From Williamsia sp. DF01-3 (GTDB taxonomy: Bacteria; Actinomycetota; Actinomycetes; Mycobacteriales; Mycobacteriaceae), in the NCBI RefSeq assembly GCF_023051145.1, contig NZ_JALKFS010000005.1, forward strand, positions 3,179,733 through 3,243,732: a stretch of DNA of 64,000 nucleotides, given 5' to 3'. The notes beneath the pieces were generated by a model, which was not told where the DNA came from, did no database searches, and saw nothing but the letters and a program-made list of their open reading frames with translations. This document shows positions 2 to 26,272 of the stretch, one piece after another. The translations under genes were made by a program, and so were the position numbers. Positions within the stretch are counted from its first letter, which is position 1, and every line of letters starts with the position of its first letter.

Positions 2-3000
2 TCATCGAGTGACGGACGATCCAACAGCATCTACGCTCCCCACGCCGATGGCCAGCGAGTGGCGCTCCAACGTGCGTACGACGATGCCCGCTGCGAGCCT
101 TCGTCGGTCGAACTGTTCGAGGCACACGCCACCGGTACAGCAGTCGGCGACAAGACCGAACTCACAGCACTCGGAAAGATGCTGCGTGCCAACACCGATG
201 AGGAGGCGTTTGCTGCGCTCGGTAGTGTCAAATCGCAGATCGGGCACACCAAGGGCGCAGCCGGTACAGCCAGCCTGATCAAACTGGCACTGGGTCTGCA
301 TCACAAGATCCTGCCGGGCACCATCAACGTGAGTCGTCCCAACCCGGTCATCACAGATGGCGCGCCTTACTACGTCAACAGTCTCACCCGTCCATGGGTG
401 CTCGATCCACATCGCCCGGTGCGTAGGGCGGCGGTCTCGGCAATGGGATTCGGCGGCACGAACTTTCACATGGTTCTCGAGGAAGTCGATACGGACCGAA
501 GCGGGGTGCGGACCTGGCACCAGACGCCGACGGCTTCGCTCTGGCACGCGCAGGATGTGCCGGCGCTCATCGAGGAACTCCAGAGCGGTTCGCCGGTCGA
601 TGGGGGCGCCATCCCGGCAACCGACGCCAGAATCGGCTTCGTGTGGGTCGACGAGGAGCAGCGCAGCCGGCTCATCGAGGTCGCGTTGGAGACATTGGCG
701 CGCGACGCTGACTCACCGGCCTGGAATCACCCAGAGGGCATATACTTTCGCCGACAGGCGCAGGCCGACCTCAAGGTGGGCGCACTGTTCTCTGGGCAGG
801 GCAGCCAGTACGTCAACATGGCGGCCTCCTCGGCCATGAACCTACCGCCGGTGGCAGGGGCCTTTGATGACGCCAACGCCGCTTTCGAAGGTGTGGAGCG
901 CCGACTCGGCTCCATCGTGTTCCCGCCTCCGGCCTTCGACGACGATGAACGGGCCGAGCAGGAGGAGCTCCTCAAGCTCACCGAGCATGCGCAACCGGCG
1001 ATCGGTGCGGTATCGGTCGGTCAGTACAGATTCCTGTCAGAACTGGGCTTCGCCGCCGAAGCGTTCGGCGGACACAGTTTCGGGGAGCTCGGCGCGCTCT
1101 GGGCGTCCGGCGCACTGGAGACCGGGGACTACTTCCGGCTGGCGCGCGCTCGCGGCGCCGCGATGGCCAAAGAATCGGGCTCAGACCGGGGAGCGATGCT
1201 GGCCGTTCGCGCTTCGCGCTCCGACGTCGACGAGCTGGTCGACCGCACCGACGACGTTTACGTGTGCAATCACAACGCCCCTGACCAAGTGGTGGTCGGT
1301 GGTGGCAATGACGCCGTGGCGGATTTCGCCGAACAATGCGCTGAGCTCGGCTGGAACACAAGGACATTGCCGGTGTCGGCAGCGTTCCATACGCCGTACG
1401 TCGCACACGCCACCGGCACGTTCCGCGAGGCGGTGGACTCGGTCACCATTGGTGCCCCCCAGGGCGCGGTGTACGGAAACGATCCCGAACGTGTCTACGG
1501 ACCCGATGCTGCAGGCAACGCCGACATCCTCGTCGACCAATTGATGCACCCGGTCGAGTTCGTGGCGGTGCTCCGAGGAATGCGCGACGCGGGCTGCACG
1601 GCCTTCGTCGAGTTCGGACCCAAACAGGTGCTCACGTCTCTGGTTCGGCGCACGCTGGGTGATCAGGTCATCGCGATTCCCACCGACATCGGACCGATGG
1701 GAGACGGAGACCTCGGGCTCAAACGGGCCGCGGTCGCTCTGGCGGTGTTGGGGATGCCGTTGTCCGGCATCAATCGGTATCAGGCCGACCCGCCGGCCCC
1801 ACCGCGCACGTCGGCGATGGCGGTCACCATCTCAGCACCGGAATACGTTCCGGAAACCCGTCGTAAGGCGTACGCCGACGTACTGGCCAACGGCTATCGG
1901 ATCAACACGGTCGGCGCCGACGACATCGATGATCCCGTTCGACCCGATCCGGTCCAGCCCAATCCGCTCGGTGCCGACGAACATCCGACGACCACACCAC
2001 ACACACCCGCAGAACGTCCTGAGGAGTTCACAGTGACACAACACCTTTCCCGCGCCGGGGACCCGAATGACGGTCACCTGAACTCGGCATTGAACCAGCA
2101 CCTCGACACCCACCGCGAGTTCCTGGGGGCCCAACTCGGAATCGCTCGCGACCTCGCTGACGCGCTGCGTCGCGGCAACCTCGACGACGGATCGATCCGG
2201 GCGATCGAAGCGGTCAGCAATCAGTCGGTGGCGTTGAGCGACAGCCATTCCCAAGCAGCACACGTGTTGGTCGGGCTCGCCGAACTCGAAGCAGGGCTGT
2301 CGCCCGAGACAACTGCGGTCCCGGCCCGCGCTCGGCGGTCCGTCACCGTTCAGTCGTCGCCGGTGCCCGCCATCTCCGCACCAGTTGACACGGAGTCGGC
2401 ACGGTCCGATCAGACGTCGAACGCCCCGGCCGCGCACACTGCTCGTCAGGACAATGCCGCACCGGTCAGCACCACCTCGACGCCTCCGGCCGAGCCCTCG
2501 ATACCCGGTTCAGATCTGTCGGAGCCGGCCGCCGAGCCTTCCGCGGCCCCAAGCGTGCCGGCAGTGGACGGACACGAGGCTGCTGCCGACGATCTCCACA
2601 CCGCCCTTCGGGAGGTCATCGCCGAAAAGACCGGGTATCCGGTCGAGATGATCGGCAGCACGATGGATCTGGAGTCCGACCTGGGCGTCGACTCGATCAA
2701 ACGGGTTCAGGTGCTCGGAGCGGTACAGGAGCGGTTCCCGCACCTCCCGAGTCTGGGCCCCGAGCAACTCGGTGAGCTTCGAACGATCGACCAAATCGTC
2801 GAGGTCATCTCCGAGGGGAGTGATGCTTACCCAAAAGCGCCGGCCGCGGTGGCGCCGCGGCTCACTGATCACGCCCTGACCTCAGAGCAGACTGATTCGA
2901 CCGACGAACTTCCATCGGCCGAACGAACACCGGTCGAACTCGTGGCCCTGCCTCGGATCGACCGCGCTGTCGACGTATTCACCACTGATCCGACCGCATC

Positions 3001-5299
3001 CCTGCTCATCGTCGGGAACGTCAGCTCCCGGCTCGTCGACGCGCTGTCCGAAGCACTGCGAGCACAGCGCTGGCGGGTGACGGGCTCACAAGCGCACTCC
3101 GGCACCACCGGTTCGTCCGAGACTGCAACGGATCAGCCGACGGACTCGCAGGCTGACCTCTGCGTGGTGATCCTGGGTGAGCCGACAACGATCTCGGAGG
3201 CTCAACAAGTCCTCTCCGACTCGATCCTCGCCATCAAGGCAGCCTCCAAAGCACTGATCCCGACGGGCGGGCGCGCCGCGTTGCTGGCAGTCACCACCGT
3301 CGACGGTGCCCTCGGCTTCGGCGACCTCGATGTCGACCCGGTGGCGGCAATGGCCGCCGGCATCGGTGGTGCAGTGAAGACACTGGCAGCGGAACGCCCC
3401 GAGCTGTTCTGCCGCGCAGTGGATGTCAATCCACTGGTAGATCCGGACCAGTTCGCCCGGACGATCATCGACGAGTCACACGATTCGGCGGTCGACACCC
3501 TCGAGGTGGGTGTCGGTGAGCTGGGGGAGCGGCACACCCTGGTTCCCAGCGGGCACGGGGCCCCGGCCACAGAGTTGTCTGCGGTCGGTGAGGACCCGCT
3601 CCACGACATGTCGGTAGGCGCGAACGATCTTCTGGTGGTGTCCGGCGGAGCCCGTGGCGTGACCGCCCTCTGTGTTCGTGAACTGGCCGCCCGCACTGAA
3701 GCTCGCTTCATCCTTCTGGGGCGCACCGATCCTTCACCGGACCCAGATTGGGCACAAGGAGTCGACGACGCCTCGTTACAAGGTGCGGCGATCAGGGCGT
3801 TGGCCGGAAGTGGACTGACGCCCCGCGACATCAACTCTCGCTGCGCTGGCGTACGGGCGGGACGCGAGATCCGCGAAACTCTGAACGCGCTGGGAGAACG
3901 TGGGCAATACCTGAGCGTCGATGTGACCGACGCCGACGCACTGCGCACTGCGCTTGCGCCCTACAGGCAGTCGGTCACGGGCATCATTCACGGTGCGGGC
4001 GTCCTTGCCGACTCACTGATCGCGTCGAAAGAAGATTCAGAGATCGCGCGGGTCCTCACTCCGAAACTGCGTGGGATCGACGCACTGATGGACTCTTTGG
4101 ACTCAGCCGCCGACGACTCGCCCGTCGAACACCTGGTGTTGTTCACGTCCGTGGCCGGGCTCTTCGGCAATCGGGGCCAGAGTGATTACGCCACCGCCAA
4201 CGAAGCCCTTGGACGATTCGCGGTTGCCACGAAGCGTCGGCACCCGGAACGTCACGTCACCGCGATCGATTGGGGAGCGTGGGACGCCGGCATGGTCGAT
4301 GACGTGTTACGGGCGCACTTCCGCGACAACGGGGTCGAATTACTCCACCCACGGGCAGGCGCAGTGGCTTTCGCAGAGCAGTTCTCGGTAGAACGCAGGG
4401 ACGATGTAGTGGTCTTGATCGGGCCGACGCGTCCGTTGGCTTCCGGATCCGCCCCGGATCCGGTTGCCTTCACCGCACGCCGCGTCATCGAGGATCTGGC
4501 GCGCCACCCGATCATCGAGGCGCACCGGATCGGCGAGAAGGTGGTACTCCCTGCCACTTTCGCACTCGGCGCGATGATCAACGTGGCGGAGAGAGCGTTG
4601 CCGGGTCGATGCGTCCGAGGGGTCAGAGACTTCCGTGTACTCAATGGCGTCTCCTTTCCGTCGGGTTCGACGGTCCCGCAGCTGCTGGTACATGCCGAGC
4701 CGACGCGCGACGCGACCACGTTGTCGGTCCGGGTCACGAGTGTTGATGGCGAACGCCTCATCCCTCATTACGTCGCTCAACTCCTGTTGGCCGACAACGA
4801 GCCGCCGATGACCACAGTCGATCCCGACTGGGGCCACGTCGGGAAGGACGCTCAGTTCATCTACGACGAGGGACAGCAGTTCCACGGACCGGCCCTTCGT
4901 GGGCTCGCGGAGGTCTTGGAGTTGTCCGAATCGCGATTGGTGGTCACCGCCTCGCTACCCGAAGCGGTTGTAGCGCTTGGAGCGTACCAGGGAATGTTGC
5001 ACAATCCGGTGCAAGCCGACCTGATCCTGCAGGTGCCACCGGTACTCGCACACAGCGCGCTGGGAGCGGCGTGCCTGCCGATGGGCGTGGGTTCCATTGA
5101 CTTCTACCACCAACTGCCGACCGGCGAGGCATTCACCGTCGTCGCCGACAATCTCAGGCGCGATGCGTTGTCGGCCACTGTTGATGCGGTGGCGATCGCG
5201 CAAGACAACACAGTCTTGCAACGCTGGAACGACGTTTCGGTGGTCACCGCGCCTGACCTTTCAGCAATGTTTCTTGAGTCGGCCCGGCAGTGGAACTGA
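2..5299 (+). CDS. Pfa-type (PUFA-synthase-like) iterative type I polyketide/secondary lipid synthase, 5' end outside window
   Basis: The reading frame is open from the first bases, so the KS nucleophile region lies upstream. Numbering from the internal GTG at 59: the KS C-terminus has EAHATGT (His about 23) and a second His in IGHTKGAAG. An acyltransferase follows with GQGSQ near 246 and GHSFGE near 338. A P/A/S-rich linker leads to a single ACP with the PUFA-type DSIKR motif (Ser about 879). Next is a ketoreductase (GGARGVTA near 1195; S-Y-N residues in TSVAGLFGNRGQSDYATAN), and last a double-hotdog dehydratase (HPIIEAH near 1483, DLILQ near 1655). The order KS-AT-ACP-KR-DH is that of PfaA with only one ACP instead of several in tandem. 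The next two genes supply the PfaC- and PfaD-like partners. It probably builds a partly reduced or unsaturated acyl chain from malonyl units; the chain is unknown. Confidence 0.9.
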   Translation, partial: SSSDGRSNSIYAPHADGQRVALQRAYDDARCEPSSVELFEAHATGTAVGDKTELTALGKMLRANTDEEAFAALGSVKSQIGHTKGAAGTASLIKLALGLHHKILPGTINVSRPNPVITDGAPYYVNSLTRPWVLDPHRPVRRAAVSAMGFGGTNFHMVLEEVDTDRSGVRTWHQTPTASLWHAQDVPALIEELQSGSPVDGGAIPATDARIGFVWVDEEQRSRLIEVALETLARDADSPAWNHPEGIYFRRQAQADLKVGALFSGQGSQYVNMAASSAMNLPPVAGAFDDANAAFEGVERRLGSIVFPPPAFDDDERAEQEELLKLTEHAQPAIGAVSVGQYRFLSELGFAAEAFGGHSFGELGALWASGALETGDYFRLARARGAAMAKESGSDRGAMLAVRASRSDVDELVDRTDDVYVCNHNAPDQVVVGGGNDAVADFAEQCAELGWNTRTLPVSAAFHTPYVAHATGTFREAVDSVTIGAPQGAVYGNDPERVYGPDAAGNADILVDQLMHPVEFVAVLRGMRDAGCTAFVEFGPKQVLTSLVRRTLGDQVIAIPTDIGPMGDGDLGLKRAAVALAVLGMPLSGINRYQADPPAPPRTSAMAVTISAPEYVPETRRKAYADVLANGYRINTVGADDIDDPVRPDPVQPNPLGADEHPTTTPHTPAERPEEFTVTQHLSRAGDPNDGHLNSALNQHLDTHREFLGAQLGIARDLADALRRGNLDDGSIRAIEAVSNQSVALSDSHSQAAHVLVGLAELEAGLSPETTAVPARARRSVTVQSSPVPAISAPVDTESARSDQTSNAPAAHTARQDNAAPVSTTSTPPAEPSIPGSDLSEPAAEPSAAPSVPAVDGHEAAADDLHTALREVIAEKTGYPVEMIGSTMDLESDLGVDSIKRVQVLGAVQERFPHLPSLGPEQLGELRTIDQIVEVISEGSDAYPKAPAAVAPRLTDHALTSEQTDSTDELPSAERTPVELVALPRIDRAVDVFTTDPTASLLIVGNVSSRLVDALSEALRAQRWRVTGSQAHSGTTGSSETATDQPTDSQADLCVVILGEPTTISEAQQVLSDSILAIKAASKALIPTGGRAALLAVTTVDGALGFGDLDVDPVAAMAAGIGGAVKTLAAERPELFCRAVDVNPLVDPDQFARTIIDESHDSAVDTLEVGVGELGERHTLVPSGHGAPATELSAVGEDPLHDMSVGANDLLVVSGGARGVTALCVRELAARTEARFILLGRTDPSPDPDWAQGVDDASLQGAAIRALAGSGLTPRDINSRCAGVRAGREIRETLNALGERGQYLSVDVTDADALRTALAPYRQSVTGIIHGAGVLADSLIASKEDSEIARVLTPKLRGIDALMDSLDSAADDSPVEHLVLFTSVAGLFGNRGQSDYATANEALGRFAVATKRRHPERHVTAIDWGAWDAGMVDDVLRAHFRDNGVELLHPRAGAVAFAEQFSVERRDDVVVLIGPTRPLASGSAPDPVAFTARRVIEDLARHPIIEAHRIGEKVVLPATFALGAMINVAERALPGRCVRGVRDFRVLNGVSFPSGSTVPQLLVHAEPTRDATTLSVRVTSVDGERLIPHYVAQLLLADNEPPMTTVDPDWGHVGKDAQFIYDEGQQFHGPALRGLAEVLELSESRLVVTASLPEAVVALGAYQGMLHNPVQADLILQVPPVLAHSALGAACLPMGVGSIDFYHQLPTGEAFTVVADNLRRDALSATVDAVAIAQDNTVLQRWNDVSVVTAPDLSAMFLESARQWN

Positions 5300-5334
5300 C
5301 CACCCGGAACCACGCATCGAAGACAGGAAGATAC

Positions 5335-7371
5335 ATGGCACACATCCGCTTTGACGGCATTGTGTTCAATCCCGTACCTGCCCGACCCGCGGACGTGGTG
5401 GAGGCCGTGCCGAGATCCGCCGGCAACCGGACCCGCGAATTGCTCGCACCGCGAGAAACTGTGCCGGTGGGGACGATGGCACCGCTGGCCGCAGTCCGAG
5501 ACAGCGTTGTCCGTGCTCACCAGGCCACCATTGCTGCCGCGTCGGCTGTCGCACGGGCGACACTGCACGATGGCCTCAACCCGGCACCGAAACAACTGGG
5601 TGAAAAGAGGTGGCCCGAGACCGTAGAAACGTTCTCCACCACTCGCGCTGCCGAACTCGCTGCTGTGCGTTGTTTTCGACCTCTGGCCCGATCCGCCAAA
5701 CGGGAGCTGTCCTCTGAAGACATCGATGTACTCACCCGCGGCGGGATCGAGCAGGTGTTCGGTCCGACGCACTGCCAAACCGCCACCGATCATGCAACAG
5801 GCCGAACCATCGCCGCGAACAGCATGTTGACAGTCGCGTCCCACGGACAGGTACAGAGCATCGAAGGTCTCGAGTCGTCGGCACGCGGGGCCGACTTCGG
5901 CGGCCTCACAGTGAGGTACAACGGTGACCCCGTTGCGGCCGCACGGTCCGCGGCCGAGGTTTTCGGTGTGTTCGTTGGCCTGCATCTGTGCATGTCCGAT
6001 TGTGTGGCCGAATCGCAGGCACACGGCACTGCACCGAATCCACCTTCCTCACAACGATTGTCATTGCGCGTGGTGGAGATCGATCTCGTCCCGATTCCGC
6101 ATCTACGGGCGCGCGTGAGTATCTCTGGGTCAGAGCCGTCCCGGGACAACGGCTTCGATGTCACCGTTGACTTCATACCTCGCGATGGTGTCGCATTGGG
6201 CCCCGGTACCAACGGTCACCTGCAGGGCTGGACCGGACGCGTGGCGACAACCGGCCGGCAGGCACTGTTGAGCGAGTTCCACATGGCGCATCTGGCCCGC
6301 GGTGATCAGGGGATCGCGTTCGGACCCGAGTTCTCGCGCTACACCGGCAACCGGGCCACTCGGCTGCCCACCGGAGGGCTGTTGCTGGTTGACCGGGTCA
6401 CAGAGTTCTCCGGCACACGAGGCAATTGGGACGCCGGTGCGGACTATCGCACCGAATACGACGTGCCTGCCGACGCGTGGTACCTGGAGGACACTGCAAA
6501 CGGATCCGTGCCGCACTTCGTCTACATGGAGACATCGTTGCAGGCCGCTCTGCTGATGGGCTACTACCTCGGCCCCACGCTCGGGTCCACTGAGACCTTG
6601 CGACTTCGAAACCTCGGCGGAACCGCCACCGTCAGTCGCAGACTGGACCTCCGGGGAAAGACGGTCGACCAGAGCTCGACGCTCGTGTCGACGACGCTCA
6701 TGCCTGGGTCATCGCTGCAGAGTTTCGACTACTCCCTTCGGATGGACGGAGATGAGTTCTACAGCGGCACGACCATGTTCGGGTACTTCAGCGATTCGGC
6801 CCTGGACAATCAAACCGGGCTCGACGCAGGACGCCATCGACCGAACTGGCTCGAGACATTGGACTCGGCACCACAGGTACGCACCATAGATGTGGCGGCA
6901 CGTCGGGACCGACGCGAACCGCTGTGCTCCATGGGGGCGTTGGCTCTGGTCGACGGAGTCGATGTGGTCGACGGGGGTGGCCAGTACGGCAAGGGGTATC
7001 TGCACATGACCCGCGACATCGAGGCAGACGAGTGGTTCTTCGACTGCCATTTCTACCTCGACCCGGTGATACCGGGTTCACTCGGCGTCGAGTCGGTGAT
7101 TCAGTGCATCCAAGAGTGGATGGTGGATGCCGGGATGCACCGGCAATGGCGTGACCCCCAGTTCCACATTCCCGTGAACGTGCCCTTCAACTGGAAGTAC
7201 CGCGGCCAGTTCGTCCCAGACGACGGTCATTGTGAGCTGGAGGTCCACGTGAAAGACATTCGCCCTCAGCCCGGCTCGGTTGTTGTCGTCGCAGACGCGT
7301 CGCTGTGGAAACCGGGTTTGCGCATCTACGAACTCATCGACATTTCGGTTGAACTCAGAGAAGGGATCTGA
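5335..7371 (+). CDS. PfaC-like protein with FabA-type hotdog dehydratase domains
   Basis: Predicted product of 678 aa. The ATG at 5335 is chosen because AGGAAG lies 6-11 nt upstream; an in-frame GTG at 5290 would overlap the synthase. The C-terminal two thirds resemble the paired FabA-like dehydratase domains of PfaC: RLPTGGLLLVDRV begins one hotdog unit, and MGALALVDGV...DCHFYLDPVIPGSLGVESV carries the FabA-like His (CHF) and PGSLG helix of the other. An upstream stretch around ELSSEDIDVLTRGGIEQVFG resembles the PfaC linker before a DH unit. No ketosynthase or chain-length-factor domain is present, unlike marine PfaC. It should dehydrate or isomerise 3-hydroxyacyl-ACP intermediates of the upstream synthase. 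Confidence 0.85.
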   Translation: MAHIRFDGIVFNPVPARPADVVEAVPRSAGNRTRELLAPRETVPVGTMAPLAAVRDSVVRAHQATIAAASAVARATLHDGLNPAPKQLGEKRWPETVETFSTTRAAELAAVRCFRPLARSAKRELSSEDIDVLTRGGIEQVFGPTHCQTATDHATGRTIAANSMLTVASHGQVQSIEGLESSARGADFGGLTVRYNGDPVAAARSAAEVFGVFVGLHLCMSDCVAESQAHGTAPNPPSSQRLSLRVVEIDLVPIPHLRARVSISGSEPSRDNGFDVTVDFIPRDGVALGPGTNGHLQGWTGRVATTGRQALLSEFHMAHLARGDQGIAFGPEFSRYTGNRATRLPTGGLLLVDRVTEFSGTRGNWDAGADYRTEYDVPADAWYLEDTANGSVPHFVYMETSLQAALLMGYYLGPTLGSTETLRLRNLGGTATVSRRLDLRGKTVDQSSTLVSTTLMPGSSLQSFDYSLRMDGDEFYSGTTMFGYFSDSALDNQTGLDAGRHRPNWLETLDSAPQVRTIDVAARRDRREPLCSMGALALVDGVDVVDGGGQYGKGYLHMTRDIEADEWFFDCHFYLDPVIPGSLGVESVIQCIQEWMVDAGMHRQWRDPQFHIPVNVPFNWKYRGQFVPDDGHCELEVHVKDIRPQPGSVVVVADASLWKPGLRIYELIDISVELREGI

Positions 7372-7372
7372 C

Positions 7373-8929
7373 ATGGTTGCGCCGTCCACAACATCCGGGA
7401 CCGATGAGATCGCCCAGACGACAGCGGCATTGTCAGACCTCTCGCGACCGTGCTGGGTGATCCGGGACAGAGAAGACATCCGGGTGACGTCCGACGAGGC
7501 AGTCGCTGCTCGGTCAGAAGTGCTCGCTGCCGTCGGGCCGTTGACGCCTGACCGTCTCGGCGATCGATCCTTCCAGCATTTTCACGGTGTGCGATACGGA
7601 TACATGGCCGGCGCGATGGCCAATGGAATCGCATCGCCCGATCTGGTCAGCGCGCTTGCCAAAGCCGGATACCTTGCCTCCTACGGCGCTGCAGGCGTCG
7701 TACCGGCGAAGGTCGATGCGGCGCTGGCCGAGCTGACAGCAACACTGCGCGATACCCCGTTTGCCTGCAACGTCATCCACAGTCCGAGCGAACCCGCACT
7801 CGAACGCGCCATCGTGGATGCGTGCCTGCGCCATCGGGTGACCTGCGTCGAGGCGTCCGCGTTCATGTCCATGACGGCGGAACTGGTCCGCTATCGAGTT
7901 CTCGGGCTCAGATCCGCTCCCGACGGGGAAATCGTCCGGGGGCACAGGGTGGTGGCGAAGGTGTCCCGGCTCGAGGTGGCGGAGGCCTTCTTGCGGCCGG
8001 CGCCCGCCGCGTTGCTGCGCCAGCTCATGGAATCGGGTGACATCACCGCGGAGTCGGCCCACCTGGCCGCAACGGTACCGATGGCCGATGACGTCACCGT
8101 CGAGGCGGACTCGGGTGGTCACACCGATCGCCGGCCGTTGCTGGTGGCATTACCTGAGATCATCGCGTTGCGCGACCGCATCGCCGGGGAATCGCCTCTC
8201 GCCGCGAATGTTCGAATCGGGGCGGCGGGCGGCATCGGGACGCCTGCGGCCGCCGCGGCGGCTTTCGGACTTGGAGCGGCGTACGTCGTGACCGGGTCGA
8301 TCAATCAGGCAAGCGTGGAGGCGGGTACCTCCGCGGCCACGAAAGAGCTTCTGGCAACCGCGGGTTCAGCCGATTGCGTGATGGCCCCGTCCTCGGACAT
8401 GTTCGAGATGGGCGTGCAGGTGCAGGTACTGCGGCGAGGAACCATGTTCGCCGGCCGCGCCGCTCAGCTGTACGACGCGTACCGCGCTTACGACTCGATC
8501 GACGCGATCCCGCAGAAGGTGCGCGACGGGCTCGAACGCGACATCTTCCGCCGGCCGCTGGAATCGGTCTGGGACGAGTGCGTGCGTTACTTCACCGAAC
8601 GTGACCCGAACCAGATCGCGGCTGCCCAGAACAACCCGCGTCGCCGGATGGCGCTGGTGTTCCGGTGGTACCTCGGCCTCTCGTCAGGATGGAGCATCGG
8701 TGGGGACGAGACCCGAACAGCGGACTACCAAGTGTGGTGCGGCCCGGCCATGGGAGCGTTCAATTCCTGGGCGGCCGGAACGCATCTGGCGTCCGCCCGC
8801 AACCGTCGCGCCGCGGACATCGCGCATCACGTCATGACCGGTGCCGCATTCCACACCCGGGTGAGCATCCTGCGCGGTGCGGGTGTGCACTTCCCGCCGC
8901 AGTGTGCGACCTACTGGCCGTCCCTGTAG
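7373..8929 (+). CDS. PfaD-type enoyl reductase (FMN-dependent, 2-nitropropane dioxygenase fold)
   Basis: Predicted product of 518 aa. The start at 7373 lies just after the previous stop and has AGAAGG about 9 nt upstream. It carries the PfaD/trans-AT ER signatures: GVRYGYMAGAMANGIASPDLV near the N-terminus, the flavin-binding AAGGIGTPAAAAAAFGLGAAY segment, GSINQASVEAGTS, and the long C-terminal extension QVWCGPAMGAFNSWAAGTHLA typical of PfaD. It reduces the 2-enoyl intermediates of the iterative synthase in trans. Its tight spacing behind the synthase and dehydratase genes supports a three-component complex. Confidence 0.9.
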   Translation: MVAPSTTSGTDEIAQTTAALSDLSRPCWVIRDREDIRVTSDEAVAARSEVLAAVGPLTPDRLGDRSFQHFHGVRYGYMAGAMANGIASPDLVSALAKAGYLASYGAAGVVPAKVDAALAELTATLRDTPFACNVIHSPSEPALERAIVDACLRHRVTCVEASAFMSMTAELVRYRVLGLRSAPDGEIVRGHRVVAKVSRLEVAEAFLRPAPAALLRQLMESGDITAESAHLAATVPMADDVTVEADSGGHTDRRPLLVALPEIIALRDRIAGESPLAANVRIGAAGGIGTPAAAAAAFGLGAAYVVTGSINQASVEAGTSAATKELLATAGSADCVMAPSSDMFEMGVQVQVLRRGTMFAGRAAQLYDAYRAYDSIDAIPQKVRDGLERDIFRRPLESVWDECVRYFTERDPNQIAAAQNNPRRRMALVFRWYLGLSSGWSIGGDETRTADYQVWCGPAMGAFNSWAAGTHLASARNRRAADIAHHVMTGAAFHTRVSILRGAGVHFPPQCATYWPSL

Positions 8930-18381: not shown

Positions 18382-19281
18382 TCACTTGAGACCGCTTCGC
18401 ACGAAGGCGTTGACGATGTGGCGCTGCAGGATGACATAGAGAACGAAGATCGGCAGGCAGGCCAGACCGGCCAGAGCCATCATCGGCCCCCACTGATCGC
18501 CTTCGGTGCCCATGAAACTCCGCAGGCCGAGTTGCAAGACGTCGTTGCTGGATTGGAGTACCACTGCGGGCCAGAAGTACTCGTTCCAGGAGTTGATGAA
18601 CAACAAGATGGCCAGCGCCGCCAACGCCGGGCGCAGGTTCGGAACCACGACTGTCCACAGGATCGACCACGAGGACCGTCCGTCCATCCGTGCCGCTTCG
18701 ATCAGTTCCTTCGGGAACCCGGACATGTGCGTGCGCATCATCAGGACGGCGAGCGCTGAACTGAGAGTTGGGACAACCACCCCGGACAGCGTGTTGAGCA
18801 GCCCCAACTGGTTCAGCAGAAAGTAATTCGGCAGCATGGTGACCTGGTAAGGCACCAACCACGTGCCGACGAACGCCAGGTACAGCAGGCCCTGGAACTT
18901 GAACCGGTAGACCGCAAACGCGTACGACGCGAGGATGGCGATGAGAAGCTGGCCGCAGGTAGATGCAAGCGCAACACCAAAAGTGTTGAGCATCAACCTC
19001 GTCACATCGACTTTGTCGGCGGCGTCGAAATAGTTCTCGACCGACAGCGGCCACGGCAGTGGCGTCAAAGAGCTGACGTCGCCGGGCCGTCGGAGCGACG
19101 TCGCGACCAGCCAGTAGATCGGGAACATACACGCGAGTGCGATGACCGCCAGTGTGAGGTGCCCCCAGATGCGCGCGAGCACACCACGCCCCGCGCCCAC
19201 GGTCGAGGCGGGCGATGTCGGCAGGGGAGGACGGACAGGCTCCGCCGTGTCCTCTGCCTTCAACATGCTGTCAGTTGTCAT
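18382..19281 (-). CDS. ABC transporter permease, UgpE/MalG type
   Basis: Predicted product of 299 aa starting at ATG 19281, which overlaps the end of the partner permease by 11 nt. It has about six membrane segments and the EAA loop KELIEAARMDG that docks to the ATPase. It pairs with the UgpA-like permease just upstream. The family imports carbohydrates or glycerophosphodiesters. Confidence 0.9.
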   Translation of the reverse strand: MTTDSMLKAEDTAEPVRPPLPTSPASTVGAGRGVLARIWGHLTLAVIALACMFPIYWLVATSLRRPGDVSSLTPLPWPLSVENYFDAADKVDVTRLMLNTFGVALASTCGQLLIAILASYAFAVYRFKFQGLLYLAFVGTWLVPYQVTMLPNYFLLNQLGLLNTLSGVVVPTLSSALAVLMMRTHMSGFPKELIEAARMDGRSSWSILWTVVVPNLRPALAALAILLFINSWNEYFWPAVVLQSSNDVLQLGLRSFMGTEGDQWGPMMALAGLACLPIFVLYVILQRHIVNAFVRSGLK

Positions 19282-20224
19282 GGAAGGTGATCCGTTCCGA
19301 CAGCCAGACCAAGAAGCCGGCGACAACGCCGAATCCGAGGAACAGGACGATGCCTGCCGCCGCGCTCAGGCCGGCATTGAATGAGTGGAATCCGTAGTCC
19401 CAGAGGAGGTAATAGATGTTTGTGGTCGCACCGGCCGGCCCACCCTGGGTCAGGGTGTCGATCAGCGGGAAACTCCACTGGGCGCTGAGCAGGATGGTCA
19501 TGAGAGTGAGGAACACGAGAGTCGGCGACAGCAGTGGCAGGGTGATCCGCCGGCCGATCTGGAGCCGGGTTGCTCCGTCGAGCTGTGCGGCCTCGTCGTA
19601 ATCCGAGCTGATGCCGGCGAGACCGGCGGCCACTGCCAGCACCGCGAATCCGATCAAGTGCCATCCGGTGATGACGATGATCGCCAGTTGCGCCGTGTTC
19701 TTGTCGTAGATCCAGTTGTGGTCGGTTCCCAAGACCCTGTTGACGATTCCGCCACTGGGATCGAGCAGCCAGCGCCACACTGCTGCCCCTGCTACCGGCG
19801 CCACCAGGAAGGGCGCGAAGATGAACCCCTGGTAGATCCGCGAGCTTCGTACCGAGACACCCCGCATCGCGAACCCGATCACGACCGGAACCACCACGGT
19901 GAACGGCAGCAGACCGATGATGAGTACAACCGTCAGCCACACGGCATCACCGAGTGCCGGCAGTTCGAACAACTGCTCGTAATTGTCGGTGCCCACCGAC
20001 TTCATGGGACTTGCCGGAAGGAGGTTCCATGACACGGTGGACAACTGCACCGCTTGGACAAGCGGCCGGTAGGTCCACACCACCAAGAGGATCAACGCCG
20101 GGGTGAGGTACAGATAGGGCACGACGCCCCGCGTGAGCCGCGACCACCGCCGGGACCGCACAGGCGGTACCGGGGTGGTCGTCGAACTGTGTACGGGCGT
20201 CGGTGTCTGGACCGGAACGAACAT
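19271..20224 (-). CDS. ABC transporter permease, UgpA/MalF type
   Basis: Predicted product of 317 aa. A Pro/Thr-rich cytoplasmic N-terminus is followed by about six membrane segments (first: YLYLTPALILLVVWTY). The EAA motif is DYDEAAQLDGATRLQIGRRITLP. It lies between the phosphodiesterase gene (6-nt gap) and the second permease (11-nt overlap), completing a CUT1-type importer with the genes at 18382, 21091 and 22463. Confidence 0.9.
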   Translation of the reverse strand: MFVPVQTPTPVHSSTTTPVPPVRSRRWSRLTRGVVPYLYLTPALILLVVWTYRPLVQAVQLSTVSWNLLPASPMKSVGTDNYEQLFELPALGDAVWLTVVLIIGLLPFTVVVPVVIGFAMRGVSVRSSRIYQGFIFAPFLVAPVAGAAVWRWLLDPSGGIVNRVLGTDHNWIYDKNTAQLAIIVITGWHLIGFAVLAVAAGLAGISSDYDEAAQLDGATRLQIGRRITLPLLSPTLVFLTLMTILLSAQWSFPLIDTLTQGGPAGATTNIYYLLWDYGFHSFNAGLSAAAGIVLFLGFGVVAGFLVWLSERITFHDN

Positions 20225-20230
20225 CGTGGA

Positions 20231-21094
20231 TCAGTTCGCGTTCGGGGTGAGCGACCACAGTCGTTCGAGGGCCACCGACTGCGGTTCGCTGTACACATCC
20301 TCCACGCCGACGACGTCGACGGACGTGGCAACCGCAGATTCACCGAACAGGTCGATTCGGCTGAACCCGAAACCGACACCCGCCCGGTGCCTTCCCTGCG
20401 GCGGTACCGGATCGGTGCGGTACGACAGCGGCGGCCCGATCCAGACCGGGATGCCCGATATCGCCGAGGCACCGGTGTAGTGCGCATGGCCGCAGAGGAT
20501 CATCCGCACATCCGAGCCGGCGATGACCGACTCGAGCGCGCTCGGATCCGTCAGCCGAAGGAAGTCGACCGTGGCGACCGGCGACCGAACCGGCGGATGG
20601 TGCATCACCAGCAGCGTTCCGCGCGGGGCCCTGTCCTCCAATACCTTTGCCAGCCAGTCCAGCTGGACATCCTCGAGACTGCCGTCATGACGCCCCGGCG
20701 TGGTGCTGTCGAGTATCACAATGCGCAGTCCACCGATGTGATGGACCGCATCGAACGGCGCGCCGAGGTCGGTCGACCCATTGCGACTCAAGTCCAGGCC
20801 GATGCGGAACCCGGCGCGGTCATCGTGATTTCCCATCGCGTAACACAGCGTGGCGCCGAGCCTCGCCGCAGTGGGCTCCAACATCGTCCGCAGCGTTCGG
20901 TAAGCCTCGGGAGACCCTGCGTCGGCGAGATCGCCGGACACGATGATCGCGTCCACCGACCCTTCCCACGCGTCTAGGTGGTTGAGAACCTTACGCAGAT
21001 TCCGTGTTGTGTCCATCATCCCGTGCATCAGATCGCCGCCGCCGCTCAAATGCGTGTCGGTGAGCTGGATGACGGTGTGGTCGGGCCCGGTCAT
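20231..21094 (-). CDS. Cyclic-nucleotide/glycerophosphodiester phosphodiesterase (CpdA/GpdQ-like)
   Basis: Predicted product of 287 aa, a calcineurin-type metallophosphoesterase. The metal-binding blocks appear in order: DTHL, GDLAD, GNHD, HHPP and GHAHYTG. The family includes 3',5'-cAMP phosphodiesterases such as Rv0805 and glycerophosphodiesterases such as GpdQ. Its place inside a Ugp-type ABC operon (4-nt overlap with the binding-protein gene) favours processing of an imported glycerophosphodiester, but this is inference. Confidence 0.85.
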   Translation of the reverse strand: MTGPDHTVIQLTDTHLSGGGDLMHGMMDTTRNLRKVLNHLDAWEGSVDAIIVSGDLADAGSPEAYRTLRTMLEPTAARLGATLCYAMGNHDDRAGFRIGLDLSRNGSTDLGAPFDAVHHIGGLRIVILDSTTPGRHDGSLEDVQLDWLAKVLEDRAPRGTLLVMHHPPVRSPVATVDFLRLTDPSALESVIAGSDVRMILCGHAHYTGASAISGIPVWIGPPLSYRTDPVPPQGRHRAGVGFGFSRIDLFGESAVATSVDVVGVEDVYSEPQSVALERLWSLTPNAN

Positions 21095-22452
21095 GACACC
21101 GGCAGAAGCGTGTTCGCCTGCTCCTGCGCGGCCGTCAAGGCGGTCGCCGGATCGGCACCCTGGAACACCGCGGACTCCACGGCAGACATCACGCCGTCCC
21201 GAATCTGCAGGTATTCATTGCCGGGCATCGAGATCCACGGTTCCATCGACTTCAGCTGCTCCAGGTTCGGCTCGAGGAGCGGGTTCTGGGCCGCCCACTC
21301 CTGCAACCCGGCCGGGTCGTCCATCAAACCTGTGCGCAGCGGGAGATAGCCGATGCCACTGGAGATCTTGACGTAGGCCTGTTCGCTGGTGAGGAACTTG
21401 ATCAGCTCCCACGAAGCACGCTGTTTGGCGGGGTCCTGCGAGAAGATGAACAGCGACGCACCGGAGTTGGTCGGCACGACGGGCTTGTCGCCGAAGCTCG
21501 GCATCGTCGTGGATCGCAGGTCCCATTTGTCTTTGGCACCCTTGACAAACTGATCCTGAATGGCGCTTGTCTCCAGTAGCATTCCCATCTCGCCGCGAGC
21601 AAATGCTTCATAACCCTGCTTTTGTGTCAGCTTGGGAGTGGCTCCCGAGTTGACCATCTGCTGTGCCATGCTGACCACCTCGACCGCAGCCGGATCGGCA
21701 AATGTCAGCGCGTCCCGGTTCTCGGAGATCACCCGGCCACCGTTCGAGCGCACGAGACTCTGGAAGCACCAATCCTTTGCGGCCTTGGTCAGGCAGTCGA
21801 TGTAGGCACCGCCCTTGCCCGTCTTGTCAGCAATGGTCTTGGCAGCGACCGCAACTTCGTCCCAGGTACGCGGCGGGTTGTTCGGGTCCAGGCCGGCTTG
21901 CTGGAAAAGTGTTGCGTTGTAGTAGAACACCGGCGTCGAGAAGACGAACGGAACGCCGTACGTCTGGCCGTCCCAGTCGCTCAAGGTTCGGGCAGTCGGA
22001 GCGAACGGATGCGTGGTGCCCTCGAAGTTCTTGTCCACTGCCTCTTCGCCGACCAATTGATCCAGCGACTTTGCCTGGAGTTGATTCACCGTGAAGTCGA
22101 GATCGGAGAATCCCAGCTGTGCAACGTCAGGGGGATTGCCGGCGGTCATCTGATTGCGGATGCTGGAAATGGTGTCAGTGGCCGGATTGGGGCTGTTTCC
22201 AGCCGGCTTCTGCGGGGTGACGGTGATGTTCGGATGCTCTTTGGAGAAGTCTGCGAGCAAGCTGTTGAACGTGTCCGTCCACGCACCCGCCAGTCCGTAG
22301 TTGTAGCTCTCGAAGACGATCGAGACCTTCTGGTCGTCCGCCAATTCGGGAATGGCTGAGGTTTCTGTTTCGTCCGACGTACTCGACAAACAGCCGGTGA
22401 GCGTCAACAGTGACGCGATCAACGGCACGGCGATCTTGAGTCTGGCCTTCAC
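21091..22452 (-). CDS. ABC transporter substrate-binding lipoprotein (UgpB/MalE family)
   Basis: Predicted product of 453 aa from GTG 22452, with AGGAG 8 nt upstream; longer in-frame starts overlap the ATPase gene and are rejected. The signal peptide KARLKIAVPLIASLLTLTGC ends in a lipobox (LTGC), so it should be lipid-anchored outside the membrane. The body is a family 1 solute-binding protein (FVFSTPVFYYNATLFQQAGLDPNNPPRTWDE style). Substrate is unknown; sugars or glycerophospho compounds are usual. Confidence 0.9.
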   Translation of the reverse strand: MKARLKIAVPLIASLLTLTGCLSSTSDETETSAIPELADDQKVSIVFESYNYGLAGAWTDTFNSLLADFSKEHPNITVTPQKPAGNSPNPATDTISSIRNQMTAGNPPDVAQLGFSDLDFTVNQLQAKSLDQLVGEEAVDKNFEGTTHPFAPTARTLSDWDGQTYGVPFVFSTPVFYYNATLFQQAGLDPNNPPRTWDEVAVAAKTIADKTGKGGAYIDCLTKAAKDWCFQSLVRSNGGRVISENRDALTFADPAAVEVVSMAQQMVNSGATPKLTQKQGYEAFARGEMGMLLETSAIQDQFVKGAKDKWDLRSTTMPSFGDKPVVPTNSGASLFIFSQDPAKQRASWELIKFLTSEQAYVKISSGIGYLPLRTGLMDDPAGLQEWAAQNPLLEPNLEQLKSMEPWISMPGNEYLQIRDGVMSAVESAVFQGADPATALTAAQEQANTLLPVS

Positions 22453-22462
22453 GGCAGTGCTC

Positions 22463-23629
22463 CTACGTAAAAGAGAGTTGAGGATGGACGGGTCGTGCCG
22501 CCGGGTGCTGCCACTGCAGCCTCCGGCCGTTTTCGGGATCGAAGAGATGAAGATCAGAGCTGTCCGCGACAAGAGTGATCTCTGATCCGATGGTGAGGTC
22601 GCGAACACCGCCGATCCGAGACACCCGGGCGCACAGCGCGACCGAGTTGACCGAGCAGTGCAGCAGGACGTCCCCACCGAGATTTTCGGTGAGCGTCACC
22701 ACGGCAGGAAGTCGCACCACGTTGCTGGCCGGGTCCTGGACGCGCCCCTCGAAGCGGTCGTCCAGTCGGAGACGCTCGGGCCGGACACCGAGGGTCAAGC
22801 GAGCGGTGTTCACCTCTGCCTGCGTGGCCTCGATGCCGAGGGGCACAACCGATTTTCCGACGTGAGCAACCAGTCGACCGGCTTGGGCCACGATGTCGAC
22901 GTCTATGAGGTTCATCGGTGGGGCGCCGAGGAAAGCTGCGACAAACACCGACTGGGGGGTGTCGTACAGCTCCTCGGGAGTACCGACCTGCTCGACACGC
23001 CCCTTGTTCAGCAGCGCAATTCGGTCAGCCATCGTCATCGCCTCGACCTGGTCATGGGTGACGTACAGGAAGGTCTTGTTGACGCGCTTGTGCAGTTCGA
23101 TGAGCTCGGTACGGGTGACCGCACGCAGTCGGGCGTCCAGATTCGACAGTGGTTCATCCATCAGGAACGCGCCCGGATCGCGAACCATGGCCCGTGCCAA
23201 TGCGACACGCTGTCGCTGACCGCCCGACAACTGTCCCGGTCGCCGGTCGAGTAGTTCCGTCAGGCCCAGCGAAGCGGCCACGCGGTCGACCGTTTGTTTT
23301 GCCTCTTGCTTGGCCACTTTTGCGGTACGCAGGGGGAAAGCGATGTTCTTTGCCACCGTCAGATGTGGGTACAGCGCGTAACTCTGGAACACCATCGCCA
23401 GATTGCGTTCTCGGGGTGGTACTTCTGTGACATCGGTGCCATCGATCACCACGCTTCCCTCGGTCGGTGTCTCCAGACCGGCGATGATGCGCAGCAGAGT
23501 CGATTTGCCGCATCCGCTCGGTCCCAGGAGCACCATGAACTCGCCGCTCGGTACGGTCAGATCAATCGACTCGAGTACCGTCGTCCCGTCGAATCGCTTG
23601 GTCACCCCATCGAGGAACAGTTCGCTCAT
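22463..23629 (-). CDS. ABC transporter ATP-binding protein (UgpC/MsmK type)
   Basis: Predicted product of 388 aa from ATG 23629, which shares ATGA with the previous stop. Walker A GPSGCGKST is at 36-44, then the Q-loop in VFQSYALYPHLTV, signature LSGGQRQRVALARA, Walker B FLMDEPLSNLD and the H-loop VTHDQVEA. The C-terminal extension of about 150 residues is the TOBE/MOI regulatory domain found in CUT1 ATPases. It energises the two permeases downstream. Confidence 0.92.
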   Translation of the reverse strand: MSELFLDGVTKRFDGTTVLESIDLTVPSGEFMVLLGPSGCGKSTLLRIIAGLETPTEGSVVIDGTDVTEVPPRERNLAMVFQSYALYPHLTVAKNIAFPLRTAKVAKQEAKQTVDRVAASLGLTELLDRRPGQLSGGQRQRVALARAMVRDPGAFLMDEPLSNLDARLRAVTRTELIELHKRVNKTFLYVTHDQVEAMTMADRIALLNKGRVEQVGTPEELYDTPQSVFVAAFLGAPPMNLIDVDIVAQAGRLVAHVGKSVVPLGIEATQAEVNTARLTLGVRPERLRLDDRFEGRVQDPASNVVRLPAVVTLTENLGGDVLLHCSVNSVALCARVSRIGGVRDLTIGSEITLVADSSDLHLFDPENGRRLQWQHPAARPVHPQLSFT

Positions 23630-24537
23630 TCGACGGGCCCGGGTGTGGCGAGCTCGCCGGTCTCGATCCACTGTCGCACCACGGGCGCCAGCAGTCGCGA
23701 ATCGGCCAGCCAATCGACGTGACCGCGATGGGTGATCGAAGAGTCGCCTTCGATGTGCCAGCGAGTTACTTTGGCAGAAGACAGCTTCCGCACCAGGAAG
23801 TCGACGTTCGATTTCGGCCCGAGGGTGTCGTCGTCCAGCGAGATGGCCAGCACCGGGAGGTCGAGCTTGCTGATGAGCTCGTCGTAGTTCAGCTTGGTGC
23901 CCTTCGGCCTGTAACGGGCGGTCAACGAATGCCGCGACCAGTCGATCATCACTCCGCCGGCCATCGGACCAGGTATCAGGATCCCGCCCGGCCAGGATCC
24001 CTTGACTCGAGCCAGCAGCCCGATCCACTGGATGGTCGACAGCGCCTCGATCCAGCGTCGAGGCCCGAATGCGCGCCAGAAGACGGTGCCGGTCCCGATG
24101 ATCGTGACAGAGGCGACCGGGCCCTGCGTGCCTTGTGCAGCGGTTCGCAGCAGAGCCAGCTGGCCACCGAGGCTGTGTCCGAAGAGGTGTATCCGGGTCG
24201 CCTCGAATCGCTGACAAACAGCGTCGATGATCGCGGGGAGATCTTCTTCGAGCATCTCTCGGTAACCGAAGTCGGGACAGTCCGCGAGTGCCGGCCGCGC
24301 TTCACCTTGCGCACGGAGATCACAGGTGGCAACCTGCACGCCAGATTTGTTGAGTGCTTTGATCAAGGGCGCATAGTGCTTGGCCTTCATCGCCATCGCG
24401 GGGATGATCAGGACAACGGGTGCCTGCGCGTCGGTCGTGGGCCAGACACGCAGGGTGATCGTGATGCCCGGTACCGGCTCGACGACGATCGACTCCTGCT
24501 GTTTGAACGCGTCCGGACGCCCGGTTGTCTGCGTCAT
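23626..24537 (-). CDS. Alpha/beta hydrolase, monoacylglycerol-lipase-like
   Basis: Predicted product of 303 aa. The ATG at 24537 overlaps the thioesterase stop by 4 nt. It has a serine-hydrolase core with nucleophile GHSLGGQLALL and an N-terminal VLIIPAMAMKAKHYAPLIKAL lid entrance. A C-terminal Asp (SLDDDTLGPKSNV) and His (ITHRGHVDW) complete the triad. It probably cleaves an acyl ester, fitting the lipid theme. Both neighbours are translationally coupled. Confidence 0.8.
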   Translation of the reverse strand: MTQTTGRPDAFKQQESIVVEPVPGITITLRVWPTTDAQAPVVLIIPAMAMKAKHYAPLIKALNKSGVQVATCDLRAQGEARPALADCPDFGYREMLEEDLPAIIDAVCQRFEATRIHLFGHSLGGQLALLRTAAQGTQGPVASVTIIGTGTVFWRAFGPRRWIEALSTIQWIGLLARVKGSWPGGILIPGPMAGGVMIDWSRHSLTARYRPKGTKLNYDELISKLDLPVLAISLDDDTLGPKSNVDFLVRKLSSAKVTRWHIEGDSSITHRGHVDWLADSRLLAPVVRQWIETGELATPGPVE

Positions 24538-25067
24538 CGGACGACCTCTCCGTGCACCACATCGCACACGTACTCGAACGTGAACTTCGCAACGGTGACG
24601 TCGTCGGCGTTCAAGACCACCGCTTTGGCCGAGATGTCGTGACGGCCGGTGCTGACCGACGACGTGATGACCCTGAGTTCGCGCTCGTCGACCGTCGCGA
24701 CGGTTCGCAGGACACCCATCGCAGGCTTGCGGTACGACGCCGTGGCGGACTTGAGCACGAGACGTTCGATTGTGTTCAGCTTGGTCGCGGCGGCGCCGAC
24801 AAATGCGGCCGCGCCTGCGATATCCGCCGCCGTGTAGATCGCGCCCGCATGCACGGTACCCATGTGGTTCATACCCGATGCCTCGCCGCTAATTTCGACT
24901 ATGGCGTGTTCTGGGGTCAGTACGGTGATCGTGGTGCCCACATGCTTGCCGAAGGGCACGATCTCGTCAGAGCGTGATCGGAGCGCTTCGAAGTCGGGAT
25001 CGGCGTAGTCGATGTCGCCGAAAGCCGCGCCGAAGCTGCCGACAGGAACTGTGGTGCTGGTTGACAT
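24534..25067 (-). CDS. DUF4442/PaaI-type hotdog protein (putative thioesterase)
   Basis: Predicted product of 177 aa. The hotdog motif MNHMGTVHAGAIYTAADIAGAA resembles the PaaI/DUF4442 family, where His and Asp residues act on acyl-CoA. The remainder (ATASYRKPAMGVLRTVATV) is the usual beta-sheet. It lies 23 nt after the acyl-CoA dehydrogenase gene and overlaps the following lipase-like gene. Acyl-CoA hydrolysis is likely; the substrate is unknown. Confidence 0.78.
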   Translation of the reverse strand: MSTSTTVPVGSFGAAFGDIDYADPDFEALRSRSDEIVPFGKHVGTTITVLTPEHAIVEISGEASGMNHMGTVHAGAIYTAADIAGAAAFVGAAATKLNTIERLVLKSATASYRKPAMGVLRTVATVDERELRVITSSVSTGRHDISAKAVVLNADDVTVAKFTFEYVCDVVHGEVVR

Positions 25068-25090
25068 TATTCTCCTGGAGTCGATGTTGG

Positions 25091-26272
25091 TCAGTTGGGT
25101 AGCCGGCGTAGTGCACGCCGGGCAATCGACCAGCGCAGCACCTCCGTCGGTCCCTCGTAGATCCGAAATGCCCTGGCCTCCACCAGGAACCTGGCAACCA
25201 GGTGGTCCTCACAGACGCCGAGCCCGCCGTGCAGCTGGACAGCACGATCGAGGATGCGCCACACCGCCTCTGCCACAAATGCTTTGGCCACCGACGCGGC
25301 ATGACGAGCATCAGAGGCAGCGGGCCCTTGAGCATCGATCACTTCCGCCGCCCGCCGGATCAGCCCCTGGCTCGCCGCAATGTCGATTTCGGTGTCCGCG
25401 ATCATTGCCTGTGCAAAGCCGCTCTCCGCAATCGGTGATCCGAATGAGGTCCTCTTGGTCACATGCCGGCAGGCCAGGTGATGAGCCCGGATCGCGACGC
25501 CCAGCCAATTGACGCAGAAGATGACACGGGAGGGAGCAAGACGGGCCTGCGCGTAGACCATCGCGCTACCCACCTCACCGAGGCGCGCGTCGTCACCGAC
25601 CTCGCAGTCGGCGAAACGAACAATGCAGTGTCCGCCGGGTACACATCGGTCGAGCGTGGTCATCCGTTCCACGACCTCGACACCGGGGTTGTCGGCATCG
25701 ACGATGAACATCGTGGCGCCGTGCGCAGTGTCGGCAATACAGATGAAAAACGCCGCGCCATCTGCTCCGGTGGTGAAGTGCTTGTCTCCGTTGATGATCC
25801 ATCCGGTCGACGTCTGTAGCGCAGAAGTCATGAGCATCGACGGATCCGAGCCGGCGCCGGGCGCAGGTTCTGTCATCGCAATTGACGATCGAACCGTGCC
25901 GGACGCCAGGGGAGCGAGGTACCGCTCCTTCTGCTCCGGTGTTCCGGCGTGCTCCAAGAGATGGATGTTGCCGTCGTCCGGTGCCGAGCAGTTCACCGAG
26001 ATCGGACCGAGGAGGCTGGTGCCCGCCACCTCCATCACGTCGATCACTTCCGTCAAACTCAGATCCAACCCACCATGTTCACGCGAGGACAGCGGACCGA
26101 AAACTCCTGCAGCTCGCGCTTTTTCCTGAAGGTCGAGACGCATGTCGTCGGTTACCCGCAGGTTGTTGCGGATGACGTCGATCTCGACCGGGATCACTTC
26201 GTCCGTGATGAACGTCTGCATCCGCGCCTTCAGAGACGCTGGTGCCTGTGGTGGCGTCGTGGTGGCGGTCAT
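25091..26272 (-). CDS. Acyl-CoA dehydrogenase
   Basis: Predicted product of 393 aa. ACAD signatures are SIAMTEPAPGAGSDP (FAD/substrate region), HFTTGADGAAFFICIAD, and the C-terminal QLHGGLGVCEDHLVARFLVEARAFRIYEGPTEVLRWSIARR. It has an RxxxIYEGPTEV end as in long-chain ACADs. Its ATG at 26272 has GGAG 8 nt upstream, and nothing precedes it on this strand for about 375 bp, so it is likely the first gene of the 17-gene transcription unit. It catalyses alpha,beta-dehydrogenation of an acyl-CoA. Confidence 0.92.
   Translation of the reverse strand: MTATTTPPQAPASLKARMQTFITDEVIPVEIDVIRNNLRVTDDMRLDLQEKARAAGVFGPLSSREHGGLDLSLTEVIDVMEVAGTSLLGPISVNCSAPDDGNIHLLEHAGTPEQKERYLAPLASGTVRSSIAMTEPAPGAGSDPSMLMTSALQTSTGWIINGDKHFTTGADGAAFFICIADTAHGATMFIVDADNPGVEVVERMTTLDRCVPGGHCIVRFADCEVGDDARLGEVGSAMVYAQARLAPSRVIFCVNWLGVAIRAHHLACRHVTKRTSFGSPIAESGFAQAMIADTEIDIAASQGLIRRAAEVIDAQGPAASDARHAASVAKAFVAEAVWRILDRAVQLHGGLGVCEDHLVARFLVEARAFRIYEGPTEVLRWSIARRALRRLPN

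Follow-up and report, generated by a model that had tools for sequence, protein, structure and literature searches.

The question raised by this locus of Williamsia sp. DF01-3 is whether two gene sets that converge on each other, one for a Pfa-type synthase and the other a 17-gene set with a fatty acyl-AMP ligase (FAAL), a free acyl carrier protein (ACP) and a desaturase, make a lipid together or are simply neighbours. The window, that is the whole stretch of 64,000 nucleotides analysed here, is C5:3179733-3243732 of a 5.59-Mb genome, and it has been studied by means of lists of open reading frames (ORFs) and Pfam/NCBIfam scans. The co-occurrence and linkage of both gene sets recur in other genomes and exceed what would be expected by chance. 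This supports that the sets belong together, and they probably cooperate to build an unusual lipid. Tentatively, the locus is read as one lipid pathway of movable modules, in which a cassette named M2 would prepare an acyl-ACP that the Pfa synthase extends.

On the plus strand, PfaA, a dehydratase protein, PfaD and the alpha/beta hydrolase abH1 end at position 9780; on the minus strand, 17 ORFs run from 26272 down to 9813, and the convergent gap (9780/9813) is 32 bp. The genes and the matches by which they were recognised are the following:

2..5299, plus strand: PfaA-like synthase KS-AT-ACP-KR-DH with one ACP (TIGR02813, Pfam domains; full length 2104 aa, 5' end outside the window)
5335..7371, plus strand: PfaC-like tandem FabA-type dehydratase, PfaC' (PF07977, AlphaFold, Foldseek)
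7373..8929, plus strand: PfaD enoyl reductase (TIGR02814 above cut-off)
8953..9780, plus strand: alpha/beta hydrolase abH1 (PF00561, synteny)
9813..10250, minus strand: hotdog thioesterase of M2 (TIGR00369 above cut-off)
10231..12072, minus strand: FAAL of M2 (PF00501; PDB matches including FadD23, FadD32 and FadD28)
12069..12809, minus strand: type II thioesterase (TEII) of M2 (PF00975)
12806..14098, minus strand: cytochrome P450 of M2 (PF00067)
14095..15000, minus strand: CMAS-type methyltransferase / cyclopropane synthase of M2 (PF02353)
14997..15263, minus strand: free ACP of M2 (PF00550)
15260..16237, minus strand: membrane fatty-acid desaturase, the marker of M2 (PF00487)
16250..16864, minus strand: GNAT-like acyltransferase (weak PDB match, puromycin N-acetyltransferase)
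16861..18288, minus strand: pyridoxal phosphate (PLP)-dependent amino-acid decarboxylase (PF00282)
18382..19281, minus strand: ABC importer permease (PF00528)
19271..20224, minus strand: ABC importer permease, nearest to the UgpA model, under cut-off (PF00528)
20231..21094, minus strand: metallophosphoesterase of the importer module (PF00149)
21091..22452, minus strand: ABC substrate-binding protein (SBP) of sugar / UgpB type (PF13416, PF01547)
22463..23629, minus strand: ABC importer ATPase of MalK type (PF00005, OB_MalK)
23626..24537, minus strand: alpha/beta hydrolase abH2 (PF00561)
24534..25067, minus strand: DUF4442 hotdog protein, putative thioesterase (PF14539)
25091..26272, minus strand: acyl-CoA dehydrogenase, with which the minus-strand set begins (PF00441)

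A sequence-only reading of this DNA had described a Pfa-like trio facing a 17-gene operon 32 bp away, and the ORF lists and family scans bear out that arrangement. The genes it named are backed by Pfam/NCBIfam families apart from the GNAT, a protein that has no match in either collection and is weakly matched in the PDB by puromycin N-acetyltransferase (E 2.1e-6). As for the single operon, the starts listed above make 11 of 16 junctions overlap and leave no gap above 93 bp (up to 167 bp with alternative start choices), which is compatible with, rather than proof of, a single transcript. The description is refined by gene content: the 17 genes appear as a mosaic of three separable modules, namely M3 (an acyl-CoA dehydrogenase-DUF4442-abH2 block plus the importer MalK-SBP-phosphoesterase-permeases), the decarboxylase-GNAT pair, and M2 in the order desaturase-ACP-CMAS-P450-(TEII)-FAAL-hotdog.

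The Pfa set begins about 4.7 kb 5' of the window with an acyl-CoA ligase gene, which is preceded by a LysR gene and followed by genes for a FAD enzyme, a GDSL protein and PfaA, whose GTG start (C5:3178717) lies 1,016 bp outside the window. The part of PfaA within the window scores 1018.8 bits with TIGR02813 (cut-off 1010.1) and PfaD scores 619.7 bits with TIGR02814 (cut-off 449.25); a PfaA with KS-AT-ACP-KR-DH domains and a PfaD enoyl reductase are what define a Pfa-type synthase. In the full-length PfaA (2104 aa) the active-site residues could be read and the DH is of the PS-DH type; no tandem ACP array was seen in the full protein, which has a single PP-binding match and a single LGVDSIK-type site. 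The AlphaFold model of PfaC' has a mean pLDDT of 68.5, with the first ~110 residues poorly modelled, and its best Foldseek match is the DH of the fatty acid synthase 2cf2, followed by structures of polyketide synthases (PKS) and fatty acid synthases and by FabA. Pfam and AlphaFold/Foldseek gave only FabA/DH matches for PfaC', with no KS, CLF or AT. The gene scan, which covered LysR to 26272 and not the remainder of the genome, found neither PfaB nor a further KS, CLF or AT. Canonical Pfa systems comprise a PfaA with a tandem ACP array, the AT protein PfaB and a PfaC that bears KS-CLF ahead of its tandem DH. A canonical polyunsaturated fatty acid (PUFA) synthase making acids like eicosapentaenoic or docosahexaenoic acid was rejected because the scanned genes hold neither PfaB nor KS-CLF and PfaA has one ACP. 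Judged by its predicted domains, the Williamsia synthase is Pfa-like and not a canonical PUFA synthase.

Regarding M2, the FAAL resembles FAALs rather than acyl-CoA ligases over its full length: 15 PDB sequences match at E <=1e-60, of which seven are named FadD23, FadD28, FadD32 or fatty acyl-adenylate ligase, the best three being labelled polyketide synthase, and the NCBIfam FAAL models match under their cut-offs. The best PDB match of the CMAS protein is 7qos, a bacterial cyclopropane-fatty-acyl-phospholipid synthase; mycolic acid synthases and the cyclopropane synthases 1kpi and 1kp9 from mycobacteria are also among its matches. The second-best PDB sequence match of the P450 is 3ejb, which we take to be the biotin-biosynthesis P450-like enzyme in complex with acyl-ACP, a likeness that would suit oxidation on a carrier. 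The composition of the cassette is steady. In the 20 regions fetched around desaturase relatives, ACP, CMAS and P450 accompany the desaturase in all, FAAL in 19 (the exception is cut by a contig end) and an orthologue of abH1 stands at the end of M2 in 14; in two scanned regions, abH1 lies beyond M2 with a second P450 between. Since abH1 ends the Pfa set in Williamsia, synteny indicates that the convergent junction cuts through M2.

Evidence for the association comes from other genomes. PfaD was used as bait and the best 80 of 85 confirmed loci were compared, so that near copies of the window's genome may be left out; the counts on these 80 loci are lower bounds, with flanks of at most 10 kb, many loci stopping at contig ends and identity thresholds chosen by the authors. 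The genes FAD enzyme-GDSL-PfaA-PfaC'-PfaD constitute a module (M1) that is followed by an acetyl-CoA carboxylase set (33/80) or, in Rhodococcus, by decarboxylase-GNAT, and the longer order LysR-ligase-FAD enzyme-GDSL-PfaA-PfaC'-PfaD is also kept together elsewhere, for example in L145/L146 and L151/L152. The M2 desaturase is within reach of PfaD in nine of the 80 loci, and M2 and the Pfa genes stand on one strand in six genomes (L067, L119, L121, L145/L146, L147/L148 and L151/L152).

A search for the desaturase, whose relatives outside the genus are 66-80% identical, covered the genomes of 50 of the 80 PfaD loci; the other 30 included short loci, distant bacteria, and L074, L078, L079, L087 and L091. 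It was found (72-97% identity) in 29 of these 50 named Pfa genomes, on the PfaD contig in 17 of them, 3.6-42.8 kb off, and on another contig in 12. In a sample of the order (298 genomes) the desaturase is present in two, both Pfa-positive (p 0.001), PfaC' in ten and the importer SBP in nine, five of them shared (p 1.6e-6). The genus containing Nocardia (118 genomes, the genus of G265) was sampled as well; it overlaps the 50 named Pfa genomes and the two counts are not independent. Here 50 genomes have PfaD, 31 have the desaturase and 30 have both, the desaturase being present in 30/50 PfaD-positive and 1/68 PfaD-negative genomes (Fisher p 1.2e-13). The two genes share a contig in 16 of the 30, within 10-43 kb in 14. 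The sequence-only reading would have been contradicted if both sets were never found together in related genomes; they recur together. Moreover, on a quick PfaD tree (49 of the 50 rows; L101 was too short) the presence of M2 changes 12 times, at least 10 of these changes being forced by starred branches, which argues that the M2-Pfa link is not one inherited event.

Within the genus Williamsia the locus is present in three of nine genomes. The other two are W. muralis (L023, L024), the closest named relatives, with a PfaD 99% identical over the whole protein and a dehydratase protein 96% identical; the three genomes are so alike that they count as one lineage. A recent insertion judged by composition was considered and discarded, as the G+C content over the first 28 kb, taken in 4-kb steps, is 0.625-0.655 and shows no outlier with respect to the rest (0.622-0.643).

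M2 also occurs beside other partners. In a sample of the class (394 genomes), the desaturase was detected in 18: the window's genome, G265 and 16 genomes of one family, that of Frankia sp. AgB32. Among 15 newly fetched regions of this family, ACP, CMAS and P450 are present in 14 and FAAL in 13, the shortfalls being short contigs, and no full Pfa set stands beside M2 in any of the 15. Two of them (L158, L160) have a PKS of one module, KS-AT-KR-ACP-TE, next to M2, separated from it by one minus-strand gene. A partial PfaA-like match near M2 (40% over 169 residues) was noted in L163; in L165, M2 adjoins a gene related to that for the upstream FAD enzyme. In the Nocardia-containing genus, G460 is the sole genome with the desaturase and without PfaD, also at E 1e-90; there (L143, G460:C3:221000-240999) M2 is preceded on the same strand by genes for a dehydroquinate-synthase-like protein, a DegT aminotransferase, an acetyltransferase, a condensation domain and two glycosyltransferases. 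This region is perhaps an amino-cyclitol or amino-sugar lipid cluster. M2 keeps its own order while the partner changes, and it is therefore best read as the donor of an activated acyl group; with these varied neighbours it resembles a movable source of tailored acyl groups for different acceptors.

The minus-strand set has two further modules. The decarboxylase-GNAT pair is near PfaD in 6/80 loci, those of Williamsia (L023, L024) and Rhodococcus (L025, L026, L030, L036), and the acetyl-CoA carboxylase set, recognised by reading sequences and not by family search, is found instead in the 33 loci mentioned above; no locus (0/80) has both. This pattern largely tracks genus and is not independent evidence. 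The sequence-only reading had proposed a modified, possibly amine-linked lipid. That the two sets belong together stands, and the amine link as a general property was dropped because the pair is restricted to these six loci, leaving it at best for Williamsia and the four Rhodococcus loci. PDB sequence matches gave no readable substrate for the decarboxylase. Further PLP decarboxylases, each 43% identical to that of the operon, are encoded at 28528-29946 of the window (plus strand), about 10 kb from the operon copy, and at C5:1225133-1226392; both are possibly paralogues with related substrates. As for M3, the importer SBP is near PfaD in 25/80 loci and resembles sugar and UgpB-type binding proteins, its PDB matches giving no readable substrate. 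The importer was rejected as a core part since six fetched regions (L123-L126, L131, L133) hold it with neither Pfa nor M2 genes; in two of these genomes (L131 and L133) Pfa is encoded elsewhere. In these six regions MalK-SBP-metallophosphoesterase-two permeases form a conserved, self-standing unit.

From the observed gene families, modularity, co-occurrence and linkage we infer all the chemistry, the head group, the substrates and that M2 acts ahead of Pfa, as follows. The FAAL would activate a fatty acid and load it on the free ACP. The ACP-bound chain would then be the substrate of the desaturase, of the CMAS enzyme for methylation or cyclopropanation, and of the P450 for oxidation, and the type II and hotdog thioesterases could edit or release it. 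The tailored acyl-ACP would serve as primer for the one KS of PfaA and would be extended iteratively with malonyl units by the reduced Pfa synthase, which consists of KS-AT-ACP-KR-DH, the tandem dehydratase and PfaD. The GDSL protein or an alpha/beta hydrolase would release the chain, and its processing or recycling as CoA thioester might fall to the acyl-CoA ligase, the acyl-CoA dehydrogenase and the DUF4442 protein. The decarboxylase-acyltransferase pair may add an N-acylated amine in Williamsia and some Rhodococcus. A more specific proposal, made with somewhat greater reserve, is that the movable cassette makes a pre-tailored starter acyl-ACP (cyclopropyl or methyl-branched, oxidised) for different elongation machines, including a stripped-down Pfa synthase, whose product would be a hybrid lipid decorated at its tail end.

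The JamABC alkyne cassette feeds another assembly line. The precedent of an alkyne cassette with FAAL, desaturase and ACP (PMC8406139) and the alternative partners of M2 are the reasons why M2 first is favoured, above the reverse order and above two separate chains. Several results weigh against it. The desaturase is missing from 20/50 PfaD-positive genomes of the Nocardia-containing genus and from 21/50 named Pfa genomes, which implies that M2 is dispensable for the synthase. M2 is rarely found without PfaD, and a dependence that runs almost one way also suits M2 acting after Pfa. The M2 label is only mildly clustered on the PfaD tree, where shuffled labels need 15.8 changes on average and 13 of 500 shuffles are as low as the observed 12, and the p values given above ignore relatedness. 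In G265 and G402 the desaturase and PfaD share a contig 447 and 571 kb apart. In the Frankia family, PfaD (E 1e-90) is present in 13 of the 16 M2 genomes but never close to M2, being either distant (about 264 kb and 1.5 Mb in the two one-contig genomes) or on a different contig, and 3/16 gave no PfaD match at that threshold, gaps being possible with their many contigs.

In the reverse order, the Pfa synthase would make and release a long chain, which the FAAL would activate anew and attach to the free ACP for tailoring by desaturase, CMAS and P450. Mycolic acid methyltransferases are believed to act on long ACP-bound chains, and the CMAS matches do include 1kpi, 1kp9 and mycolic acid synthases, though the best is 7qos; likewise, nearly all desaturase-positive genomes of the Nocardia-containing genus (30/31) have PfaD, and many PfaD-positive ones lack the desaturase. 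Nevertheless, M2 is found without PfaD in G460 and beside another PKS in the two Frankia-family genomes, which suggests that it does not need a Pfa product, and the reverse order is considered unlikely. Slightly less probable again is that M2 and the Pfa synthase make one chain each, to be joined in a multi-acyl product such as a glycolipid or lipo-amide. The sugar-type importer protein near PfaD, the several hydrolases and thioesterases of the locus and the glycosyltransferases near M2 in G460 would agree with this, but among the scanned locus genes neither a glycosyltransferase nor an acyltransferase beyond the GNAT-like protein was recognised, and the importer is also found without the other genes. 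Finally, the operons could be unrelated neighbours in a recombination-prone region, both sets being patchy and unlinked in some genomes; the within-genus association and the repeated linkage in differing arrangements make this very improbable.

Some neighbouring genes deserve mention. The best NCBIfam match of the upstream FAD-binding oxidoreductase is the geranylgeranyl-reductase superfamily, under cut-off, and its best PDB match is a weak one to a halogenase (E 1.8e-19). Flavin halogenases carry a WxWxIP motif, and this assignment was rejected as the motif was not found on reading the protein sequence. At 35431-36480 (minus strand) a gene matches PF03492 (E 5.5e-33), a family of SAM-dependent carboxyl methyltransferases mainly from plants. 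At 30600-31615 (minus strand) a nucleotidyltransferase-fold gene with weak Pfam matches overlaps by one base a 128-aa gene without Pfam match, a layout that resembles a two-gene toxin-antitoxin or similar pair.

The sequence-only reading knew of no named product of this set, and no described product was found in the literature searched, most subscription journals being outside its scope. The same literature did not yield the combination of Pfa and M2, the cassette bearing CMAS and P450, its portability, or a Pfa hybrid lipid with decorated tail end as a product class. Pfa-type synthases and the FAAL/ACP/desaturase logic are themselves already known. With M2 as a defined partner cassette, and with close relatives that naturally have or lack it, an orphan Pfa synthase becomes part of a pathway that can be tested. 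Should M2 indeed prime the synthase, it would follow that Pfa enzymes take elaborate starters, a point of relevance to lipid engineering, and perhaps also to the lipids of Nocardia, Rhodococcus, Amycolatopsis, Pseudonocardia and Frankia, all carrying these genes.

The Pfa-type secondary lipid synthases are among the nearest known systems. The relative examined that is nearest to Rhodococcus erythropolis is R. qingshengii (L026), presumably a close species. Shulse and Allen (2011, PMC3098273) catalogued Pfa-type synthases whose product is unknown and listed Type Q only in R. erythropolis PR4; such synthases, perhaps Type Q, likewise combine PfaA and PfaD homologues in an actinobacterium, and they are likened here by description. 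The antiSMASH class hglE-KS probably covers such synthases: according to the available part of PMC8396431, the hglE-KS cluster of Rhodococcus sp. I2R has 10% similarity to the vazabitide A cluster and its product is unassigned. At family level, M2 resembles the mycolic acid methyltransferases and FadD32, CMAS and FAAL families that likewise act on activated acyl chains, with the locus proteins missing the curated NCBIfam cut-offs. The FAAL/ACP/desaturase set is a known alkyne cassette (PMC8406139), placed there outside Proteobacteria in cyanobacteria, planctomycetes and Entotheonella, with two Mycobacteriaceae in the polyyne clade. Likened by gene content, the JamABC cassette and the polyyne clusters encode FAAL, free ACP and membrane desaturase together as M2 does, whereas M2 has one desaturase only, with no rubredoxin seen, and adds a CMAS enzyme and a P450.

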